Shown piece by piece: positions 10,535 to 11,870 of a stretch of DNA of 64,000 nt; within the stretch, counting starts at the first letter, position 1; each line of letters begins with the position of its first letter. A model generated the notes under the pieces. That model saw only the letters and a program-made list of their open reading frames with translations, ran no database searches and was not told where the DNA came from. The position numbers and the translations under genes were made by a program. The stretch comes from Pseudomonas wuhanensis (GTDB taxonomy: Bacteria > Pseudomonadota > Gammaproteobacteria > Pseudomonadales > Pseudomonadaceae), in contig NZ_CP117430.1 of the NCBI RefSeq assembly GCF_030687395.1, positions 4,836,001 to 4,900,000 of the forward strand, read 5' to 3'.

Positions 10535-10621
10535 CCCTGTGGGAGCGGGCTTGCTCGCGAAGACGGAGTGTCAGTCGACATCATCGTTGCCTGACACACC
10601 GCTTTCGCGAGCAAGCCCGCT
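10535..10621. repeat. REP doublet interrupted by the insertion sequence (left part)
   Basis: CCCTGTGGGAGCGGGCTTGC begins a class A REP whose inverted partner reads GCGAGCAAGCCCGCT up to 10621 and then stops matching. The missing end, CCCACAT, reappears at 11864 after the insertion sequence. Joining the two sides restores a normal REP. Confidence 0.9.
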
Positions 10622-10644
10622 TGTGTCTTGCGCAGGACTTAGAC

Positions 10645-10800
10645 TGAAGATGAGAGCGGTGAGTGGCAAGCTGAACGCCCGGAGTGCTAGCAGCACGTGT
10701 GGGAGCCCATGCTGCCATTCACCTCTCCACTCTGGTTATTGAGCCCGAACAGTTGAACGAGCCGACCTCGAACATTACAAGCGTGGAGCCCAACCAGAGC
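10645..10800 (+). ncRNA. candidate bridge RNA of the IS110-family element
   Basis: Two stem-loops are visible. The first stem pairs 10654-10668 with 10713-10727 (15 positions, one mismatch, one G-T). Inside it a GTGCT/AGCAC hairpin (10684-10696) separates two strands: GCCCG (10677-10681), identical to the REP target just left of CT, and TGTGGGAGC (10698-10706), complementary to GCTCCCACA at the right junction. The second stem pairs CTCTGGTT (10730-10737) with AACCAGAG (10792-10799). Its loop has ACAGTTG (10749-10755), identical to the element's right end next to CT, and ACAAGC (10777-10782), complementary to GCTTGT spanning CT and the left end. This two-loop plan is that of bridge RNA. The exact 5' and 3' ends are not determined. 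Confidence 0.75.
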
Positions 10801-10832
10801 GCTCTCATTTATGAGTGTAAGAGGGTTTAGCC

Positions 10833-11762
10833 ATGTTTTCCTGCGCAGGCATTGATGTTTCCAAAGACAGTCTGGAAGTCTGGATTAATTCGCAAGGCAT
10901 TGGTGCGAGTTTTCCGAACAGCGCCAGTGGTTTCCCGGTGCTGATTGATTGGTTAAAAGGCTTCGAAGTCACCCGCGTGTTACTGGAAGCCACCGGTGGC
11001 TACGAGCGGGGGCCCATGAAGGTGCTTCAAAGGGGCGGCTTTGACGTCTTACGAATCAATCCTCGTCGGGCGAAAGATTTTGCCAAGGCAATGGGTTATC
11101 GCGCTAAAACAGACGCGATAGATGCGCGGCTTCTCGCCGAATTTGCAACGATTATAAAGGACGCCGATAGCCGTATCACCAGCGCCGAACAGGACAATTT
11201 GCGTGCGCTGGTACAGCAACGCGAAAACTTTGTTCAGCAGCAAAGTGACGACAGGCGGCGTATCAAAACGGCTTCTGTCGACTCGATAAAACCCTTGTTG
11301 CAAAGCCATATCGACTATTTAGATCAGGCAATAAAGTCGATAGAACAGCTGATCTGCCAAAGCGCCAAAGACCTGGACAGTGAAAAAATTGCCCGCTTGC
11401 GCTCGGTTAAGGGACTAGGGCTCGTGACCGCAGCCAGCATCATGGCCTACCTGCCTGAGCTGGGAGAGGTTGGACGGCACGAGATCGCAGCACTGGCAGG
11501 GATCGCCCCTTACAACGACGACAGCGGCAACCACGAAGGGCCTCGTCATATAAGCGGTGGCCGATTTGCCGTGCGACGTGCGATGTACATGGCCAGTTGG
11601 GCTGTGATTTTGCGACAACCCGAGTTCAAAGCCCGATATGACGCGCTTCGCCTGAGAGGTAAATGCGCGAAAGTGGCGCTGATCGCCTGCATGCGGGTGT
11701 TGTTGATAAGGCTGAACGCGATGATCCGTGACCAAACTGAGTGGAGAGAGCAGGCAGCCTAA
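10833..11762 (+). CDS. IS110-family transposase (DEDD, bridge-RNA-guided recombinase)
   Basis: 309 residues. The N-terminal RuvC-like DEDD domain shows D8 (AGIDVSKD), E52 (VLLEATGGYERG), and D94 and D97 (AKTDAIDARLLAEFA). The middle is a coiled coil (about 110-180). The C-terminal transposase_20 domain has the helix-hairpin-helix SVKGLGLVTAASIMAYLPEL and ALAGIAPYNDDSGNHEGPRH, where S231 fits the serine nucleophile of IS621-type recombinases. The frame is intact and all catalytic positions are present. Codon use is more A+T-rich than in the neighbours, consistent with a mobile gene. The ATG follows AAGAGGG with the leader RNA region directly upstream. Confidence 0.93.
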   Translation: MFSCAGIDVSKDSLEVWINSQGIGASFPNSASGFPVLIDWLKGFEVTRVLLEATGGYERGPMKVLQRGGFDVLRINPRRAKDFAKAMGYRAKTDAIDARLLAEFATIIKDADSRITSAEQDNLRALVQQRENFVQQQSDDRRRIKTASVDSIKPLLQSHIDYLDQAIKSIEQLICQSAKDLDSEKIARLRSVKGLGLVTAASIMAYLPELGEVGRHEIAALAGIAPYNDDSGNHEGPRHISGGRFAVRRAMYMASWAVILRQPEFKARYDALRLRGKCAKVALIACMRVLLIRLNAMIRDQTEWREQAA

Positions 11763-11861
11763 ACAGACTGCTTGCTCATTTGGGAAATCACATGGTTTGA
11801 GACTGTGGAAGTTCGGCTGCCCTTTGATCAAACTTCAAAATAAAAGACATCAAGACAGTTG

Positions 11862-11870
11862 CTCCCACAT
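11862..11870. repeat. REP remnant on the right of the insertion sequence
   Basis: CTCCCACAT is the end of the class A REP begun at 10535. It is displaced 1.24 kb by the insertion and lies 14 bases from the nitroreductase stop. Confidence 0.8.

Follow-up and report, generated by a model that had tools for sequence, protein, structure and literature searches.

The leader of an IS110-group insertion sequence in Pseudomonas wuhanensis very probably encodes a bridge RNA, whose target-binding loop matches the REP site where the element sits. The element lies in a 64,000-nucleotide stretch of contig NZ_CP117430.1 (positions 4,836,001 to 4,900,000), which we will call the window; all coordinates are those of the window. 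The original prediction had proposed a bridge RNA on the basis of the target loop. This reading is supported by relatives, in which the guides covary with the targets, and by a donor-binding loop behind the target loop, which the original prediction did not include.

The element and its insertion site

The insertion sequence spans 10620-11863. Both transposase domains, PF01548 and PF02371, score above their cut-offs, so the protein combines a DEDD (RuvC-like) N-terminal domain with a C-terminal Transposase_20 domain that has the conserved serine. It also matches NF033542 (IS110 RNA-guided transposase) with 217.8 bits (cut-off 140), and its best solved relative by sequence is IS621 (8wt6, E = 7e-32), which aligns over residues 5-290, including the SG motif. 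Which of the aligned residues are catalytic is partly our assumption. The element has a CT core at both ends, and its long noncoding end is upstream of the transposase. We rejected the IS1111 group, whose seekRNA is encoded downstream, because the long noncoding end is not downstream of the transposase. The parts of the element are:

10620-10621, no strand: CT core, left copy (2-bp repeat at the REP insertion point), from comparison of the 11 copies
10622-10832, + strand: left end (LE), 211 nt, noncoding, with the putative bridge RNA, from the sequence and the copy comparison
10833-11762, + strand: IS110 transposase/recombinase, 309 amino acids, from the domains and the IS621 homology above
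11763-11861, + strand: right end (RE), 99 nt, with terminus ..GACAGTTG, which gives the TTG of the -35 box in the circle, from the copy comparison and junction rows
11862-11863, no strand: CT core, right copy, followed by CCCACA of the REP, from comparison of the 11 copies

The 6.59 Mb host genome contains 11 full-length copies, and all 11 sit at a single REP-type point, CCCG/CT..CT/CCCACA, with CCCGCT as the left flank and CTCCCACA as the right flank. The bases before the core are GCCCG in 10 copies and ACCCG in one (L012). Eight of the 11 are identical over 1240 bp. In two copies the transposase frame is shortened (69 and 183 amino acids), and another encodes 308 amino acids. The window's copy is inserted at GCCCG/CT/CCCACA, and its target, with both sides and the core, reads GCCCGCTCCCACA. 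The genome contains 805 GCCCGCTCCCAC sites, versus 6 for the reversed pattern.

Two other observations concern the copies. Beyond CACCCGCT, the left flank of L012 (G000:C1:5041640) no longer resembles a REP, possibly due to recombination between copies. At G000:C1:2586240-2586277, a 38-base stretch matches the left terminus (89%) and the rest of the element is absent; this is possibly a remnant. A plasmid search with the element's DNA gave no match, and the best plasmid relatives by protein were about 42% identical.

Guides, fold and predicted promoter of the leader

We identified the following features in the leader:

10640-10645, + strand: candidate -10 box TAGACT, 17 nt after TTGCTT in the circle, with the TTG from the right end (from the sequence; activity predicted)
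10651-10657, + strand: outer helix, 5' strand TGAGAGC, near the expected start of the bridge RNA (from the folds; start predicted from the -10 box)
10658-10668, + strand: target-loop stem, 5' strand (consensus fold, compensatory changes)
10677-10681, + strand: left target guide GCCCG, the five bases before the core, which would pair with the bottom strand (sequence, relatives)
10684-10696, + strand: apical hairpin of the target loop, GTGC..GCAC (sequence, consensus fold)
10698-10706, + strand: right target guide TGTGGGAG, the complement of CTCCCACA including the core, plus C10706 (sequence, relatives)
10713-10723, + strand: target-loop stem, 3' strand (consensus fold)
10730-10737, + strand: donor-loop stem, 5' strand CTCTGGTT (both folds)
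10749-10755, + strand: left donor guide ACAGTTG, which repeats the final 7 bases of the RE, 11855-11861 (sequence)
10777-10783, + strand: right donor guide ACAAG (10777-10781) plus CG (sequence)
10792-10799, + strand: donor-loop stem, 3' strand AACCAGAG (both folds)
10801-10807, + strand: outer helix, 3' strand GCTCTCA (both folds)
10814-10819, minus strand: possible antisense -10 box TACACT, adjoining the ribosome-binding site (TANNNT in relatives; transcript predicted)

The target guides are complementary to the bottom and top strands of the target, and the donor guides are complementary to the RE-LE junction. As originally predicted, GCCCG at 10677-10681 equals the five bases before CT at the actual insertion site, as determined by comparing the copies. 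The right guide stretch reads TGTGGGAGC in full. Its C10706 is complementary to the G that precedes the core in both the target and the donor, and the first base of the right target guide is not constant among relatives. In the donor loop, ACAAG is complementary to CTTGT, which is the core plus the left end, and the left guide precedes the right guide, as known from IS621. The CG after ACAAG could pair with target bases -2 and -1 after strand exchange and so play the handshake role; the handshake guide of IS621 is described as pairing analogously (PMC11208160, PMC11208158).

In the leaders that we parsed, the right guides include AG and no CT comes after the left guides, which implies that the left guides stop before the core. 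The left guide of the window, which had been drawn as part of a match on both sides of CT, is thus read as ending before the core, and we do not see the core paired by all four guides, as it is in IS621. In G018 and some other relatives, the left guide is followed by the C of the core, and in two distant relatives (G188b and G717) the left target guide is followed by CT, so inclusion of the core varies within the family.

To estimate how often such matches arise by chance, we made 20,000 dinucleotide shuffles of 10651-10806, with match lengths that were picked after the matches were known. The 5-base left match appeared in 5,441 shuffles, and in the leader itself GCCCG recurs at 10743-10747. 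Because so many shuffles reproduce it, we rejected the left match alone as evidence. The right match had been called unlikely by chance, and taken as 8 bases, a length chosen post hoc, it appeared in just 63 shuffles. The ordered target pair (left before right) appeared in 7 shuffles, the ordered donor pair in 26, and both ordered pairs jointly in none.

The fold modifies one part of the original prediction, which had the target loop closed by a 15-position stem (10654-10668 with 10713-10727). By hand, 14 of the 15 positions pair; G10663-T10718 is a wobble and C10657-T10724 is unpaired. But the outer end of this stem probably belongs to a separate, enclosing helix. The inner 11 pairs (10658-10668 with 10713-10723) are present in both the single-sequence and the consensus folds, while the outer part competes with the helix 10651-10657/10801-10807, which encloses both loops and which both folds favour. 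By simple pairing, both alternatives can form across the 19 aligned leaders; the one exception is the outer helix of G018, with 3 of 6 pairs, where the alignment looks shifted. The predicted GTGCT/AGCAC hairpin is present at 10684-10688/10692-10696. Covariance folding, which had been suggested as a check, yielded a consensus of the 19 leaders with 43 pairs, of which 11 have changes on both sides.

Excision of the element would give a circle in which the joining of RE to LE creates a promoter, TTGCTT-17-TANNNT. A hexamer beginning with TTG, a 17-nt spacer and TANNNT are found in 33 of the 33 junction rows that we parsed (one is a duplicate, as TH10 and G742 are one locus). The -35 box is weak: it agrees with TTGACA in the TTG only. 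The -10 boxes agree with TATAAT at 3-5 of 6 positions. In L037 (from G018) and L122 (from G790), the right core is preceded by an additional G (GTTGGCT), and the left end is one base shorter; with one base gained in the RE and one lost in the LE, the spacing stays 17. Restoration of a promoter across the circle junction is thus a prediction from the sequence. In the integrated element, a sigma-70 scan gave a single promoter-like site, which is on the minus strand within the gene (0.6 expected), and 2 terminator-like sites (2.3 expected), so the scan is uninformative.

Given these features, the mechanism is most likely as follows. The junction promoter would transcribe an RNA from near 10651. 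The target loop would pair with the REP, with the left guide on the bottom strand and the right guide on the top strand plus the CT core, and the donor loop would pair with the circle junction. The recombinase would then join target and donor at CT. From IS621 we infer that the RNA is transcribed, that the protein binds it and that recombination takes place.

Natural retargeting among relatives

To find relatives, we searched 298 genomes of the genus with the window's transposase and found matches in 27 (including its own genome); the same query gave 11 loci in genome_contigs. We also searched a partly overlapping set of 398 genomes of the genus with the G018 transposase, and 33 matched. Guides and flanks were parsed for each locus and scored by lineage (with the commonest guide and target) and by copy. 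Both scores leave out 24 unparsed loci, which have other leader types or were missed by our patterns; among them are two members of the close clade, TH10/G742 and L154. Duplicates (L169, L051 and the RGM locus; also L048, which is a second fetch of one copy) were removed before counting. For L014 and L018, we set the right flank by hand from the 11-copy comparison, and G127, which lacks a full left flank, was scored on the right side only.

The core and five further bases of the right guide fit the target in 90 of 91 copies. By lineage, 182 of 182 positions fit across all 26 lineages, of which 52 positions are the constant core. The permutation mean was 172.5, and the observed value was reached in 30 of 200,000 permutations; this and the other permutation figures are optimistic, because lineages share ancestry and so are less independent than the figures imply. 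At the eighth base, as many as 19 of the 91 copies (L115 among them) disagree with the target. The 9-base right match at 10698-10706 that was originally noted, TGTGGGAGC, is therefore present but longer than the conserved pairing.

The left guide is looser. Of the 84 copies with a flank, 78 fit (36 by Watson-Crick pairing and 42 with wobbles only) and 6 are misfits. Among 25 lineages, 12 fit fully, 10 fit with wobbles only (a U of the guide facing C in the target, or a G facing A), and three are misfits (G165, G188a and G117). Of the 125 positions in these lineages, 109 are identical; the permutations averaged 97.1, and 4 of 200,000 reached the observed value. When each distinct guide pair was counted once, with its majority target, the fit was 63 of 63 on the right (793 of 200,000) and 34 of 40 on the left (1,418 of 200,000), but use of the majority target hides G165, G289 and G734 in the GCCCG class.

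The clearest case of covariation is G018, with the left guide ATTCG and the target ATTCG in six of six copies. G158 and G735 have a GCCCC guide for a GCCCC target (one copy with a readable flank each), and G265 has an ACCCG guide for an ACCCG target (one copy). On the right side, the guide differs from the window's within seven bases in three lineages, and their targets differ likewise: G127 and G790 have the guide GTAGGAG and the target CTCCTAC, and G161 has the guide TAGGAAG and the target CTTCCTA. For G127 and G161, we predicted the targets from the guides before the flanks were displayed, and both predictions held over seven bases. The flank of G127 was exactly CTCCTAC, as predicted. For G161, we predicted CTTCCTAAC and the flank was CTTCCTACA, which agrees through CTTCCTA and diverges beyond.

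The original prediction named relatives with a different target and the same loop bases as counter-evidence. Mostly, the loops changed along with the target. The clearest exception is G165, whose three copies (L029, L091 and L092) have the guide GCCCG and yet the target GCCCC; this mismatch adjoins the core and perhaps reflects tolerance or a change in the guide after insertion. G289 and G734 also keep GCCCG, and their targets are mostly ACCCG, where the G of the guide could form a wobble pair. The other left misfits are G188a (one base off), G117 and one copy from G734. The sole right exception among the 91 copies is L115 (from G156), whose point-changed guide GTGGGGGAGC is not matched by its target CTCCCACA; this mutation possibly postdates the insertion.

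The donor loop and the donor ends are nearly invariant within the close clade. In distant relatives, which are about 30-41% identical, we read by eye that the left donor guide tracks the end of the element: it is ACGGTTGC in G188b, G765 and G197 (the end of G197 is visible in part), ACAGTATCT in G012 and ACGGTATCTA in G060. This donor covariation involves a few distant relatives and does not include G269, G142, G068 or G229. G188b also has matches for both of its target guides, including the core. G717 is presumably from the Xanthomonadaceae, judging by the Rfam family that its genome contains. Its guides, TAACGCCT and TAATTCAGC, fit another type of site, TAACGC/CT/GAATTA, which we take to be similar to an integron attC. 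Four IS110 copies of G717 (L064, L071, L077 and L080) have target guides that match this attC-like site.

These data bear on two other explanations for the matches. If the protein alone determined the site preference, the matches would be due to chance. REP targets are common to most lineages, so conservation by itself is weak evidence against this; the left match is easily reproduced by shuffling; and G165 shows a differing target without a change in the guide. But target and loop change together across lineages, and no shuffle contained both ordered guide pairs, so we consider this explanation to be almost certainly wrong. Another idea is that the structure of the 5' UTR only controls translation of the transposase, and that TGTGGGAGC is a captured fragment of a REP. 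The REP that adjoins the element does contain TGTGGGAGCGGGC, and the 5' UTR of ISPpu9 is reported to fold and to limit translation (PMC8450116). A captured fragment would leave the donor loop unexplained, as well as the guides that change together with the target (G018, G127, G161 and G790) and the guides of G717 that match another kind of site. Capture plus purely translational control is largely refuted by the covariation of guides and targets, and we consider it very unlikely.

The antisense strand, sX15 and known elements

The leader also matches a known RNA family on its opposite strand. RF02234 (sX15) matches 10644-10809 on the minus strand with 27.8 bits (E = 0.034), a weak yet full-length match that is below the family's gathering score of 55 bits. 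RF02234 is annotated as an independent small RNA of Xanthomonadaceae, whereas here it is antisense to an IS110 leader; we took the strand of sX15 from the Rfam annotation. Among 369 genomes drawn from the class, RF02234 was found in one, and within that genome's family it was found in 9 of 60 genomes (6 of 60 above the cut-off).

We examined the surroundings of the 20 RF02234 matches listed (L062-L081, presumably from Xanthomonadaceae), two of which duplicate others on the opposite strand. Of the 18 distinct places, 13 have an IS110 frame that starts about 20-40 nt beyond the match and runs in the opposite direction. For 12 of these, the frame was found by tblastn (L066 over 55 residues only); L065 had no tblastn hit, and its frame was identified by eye. 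The remaining five places comprise three fragments at contig ends, a partial match and a second copy (L072). Conversely, we tried eight Pseudomonas relatives of the window's element, and all match RF02234 over its full length, antisense to the transposase leader, with scores of 29.7 to 59.4 bits. Two of the eight (L031 and L034) score above the gathering score, and L023 has an E-value of just 0.28. Judging from these alignments, the sX15 family of Rfam represents bridge-RNA leaders of IS110 elements, read on the antisense strand. A limited literature search found no link between sX15 and IS110. Among the papers listed, just one, on Herbaspirillum, combined sX15 with Xanthomonas and small RNAs, and it names sX15 once, in a table. 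The listed papers that contain sX15 as a word deal with unrelated subjects, judging by their titles and the beginnings of their abstracts.

The antisense strand may have its own promoter. In 33 of 33 leaders that our pattern caught, the antisense strand has TANNNT 5-8 nt from the stem, beside the ribosome-binding site, and the inner bases vary; these leaders are related, include one duplicate (TH10/G742), do not include G117 or G265, and were counted with no chance control. The placement is as described for the promoter of Asr9, the antisense RNA of the ISPpu9 leader, whose -10 box overlaps the ribosome-binding site (PMC8450116). An antisense promoter may be conserved here. We tentatively suggest, as something that may well prove wrong, that the leader is used on both strands, with the sense strand as the bridge RNA and the antisense strand as a stable complementary RNA that acts as a regulator. 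This antisense RNA (Asr9 in ISPpu9, sX15 in Xanthomonadaceae and a predicted RNA here) would cover the whole bridge RNA. In a limited literature search on IS110, bridge RNA and antisense, the titles and the beginnings of abstracts revealed no such RNA.

Alternatively, the functional guide might be an antisense transcript of the Asr9/sX15 type, since its loops would be equally complementary to target and donor; guide complementarity by itself is blind to strand. In favor of this idea, sX15 is annotated as a small RNA on the antisense strand, and Asr9 is reported to be very stable and to raise transposition when overproduced (PMC8450116). Wobble pairs do distinguish the strands. Across the cells of the consensus fold, there are 39 G-U versus 4 A-C combinations (32 versus 1 without the misaligned G018). 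Because 19 of the 39 G-U cells come from one invariant pair, we also counted without that pair: 20 versus 4, or 14 versus 1 if G018 is left out as well. For the left guide, 44 deviating cells can be paired by a sense RNA and none are of the antisense type. Both asymmetries favor the sense strand, and IS621 is reported to use the sense strand (PMC11208160). We rejected the antisense guide because of the wobble asymmetry and consider it highly improbable. Wobble direction, promoter spacing and fold covariation all point to a sense-strand bridge RNA.

This kind of element is already known: a bridge RNA is proven for IS621 (PMC11208160) and predicted for ISPpu10 (PMC11208160, legend of Extended Data Fig. 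10), and REP insertion of ISPpu9 and ISPpu10 was reported by Tobes and Pareja in 2006 (PMC1525189). As described by Durrant 2024 (PMC11208160) and Hiraizumi 2024 (PMC11208158), IS621 from E. coli is similar to the window's element in its IS110-group recombinase and LE-encoded RNA; in having the target loop before the donor loop, with a 5' guide for the bottom strand and a 3' guide for the top strand; and in its CT core, promoter across the circle junction and REP targets. IS621 differs in that the core is included in all four guides, while the left target and donor guides end before the core here. Also, the right guide pairs over at least seven bases here, compared to four in IS621, although some orthologs with a longer right guide were already reported (PMC11208160). 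And a helix encloses both loops here, while the IS621 RNA is described as a 5' stem-loop followed by two loops.

ISPpu9 and ISPpu10 from P. putida KT2440, which we compared by their description, are likewise IS110-family elements with a single REP position and a 2-bp repeat (PMC1525189). ISPa11 and other seekRNA elements of the IS1111 group are similar in being RNA-guided DEDD recombinases with REP or attC targets, but their guide RNA is downstream of the transposase and its guides are reversed, while the RNA is upstream here (PMC11187229). The seekRNA and natural reprogramming were described in the same paper.

What is new is this predicted bridge-RNA element and a natural series of retargeting within one genus. 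The series covers REP variants with GCCCG, GCCCC, ACCCG or ATTCG on the left and CCCAC, CCTAC or TCCTA on the right, and its many near-identical, recent copies should help to show which positions of the guides, and which wobbles, are tolerated. The re-identification of sX15 would join the observations on ISPpu9/Asr9 and on sX15 in one frame. If the leader is indeed used on both strands, the antisense RNA would be an intrinsic regulator that controls how much guide is available across this whole branch of IS110.
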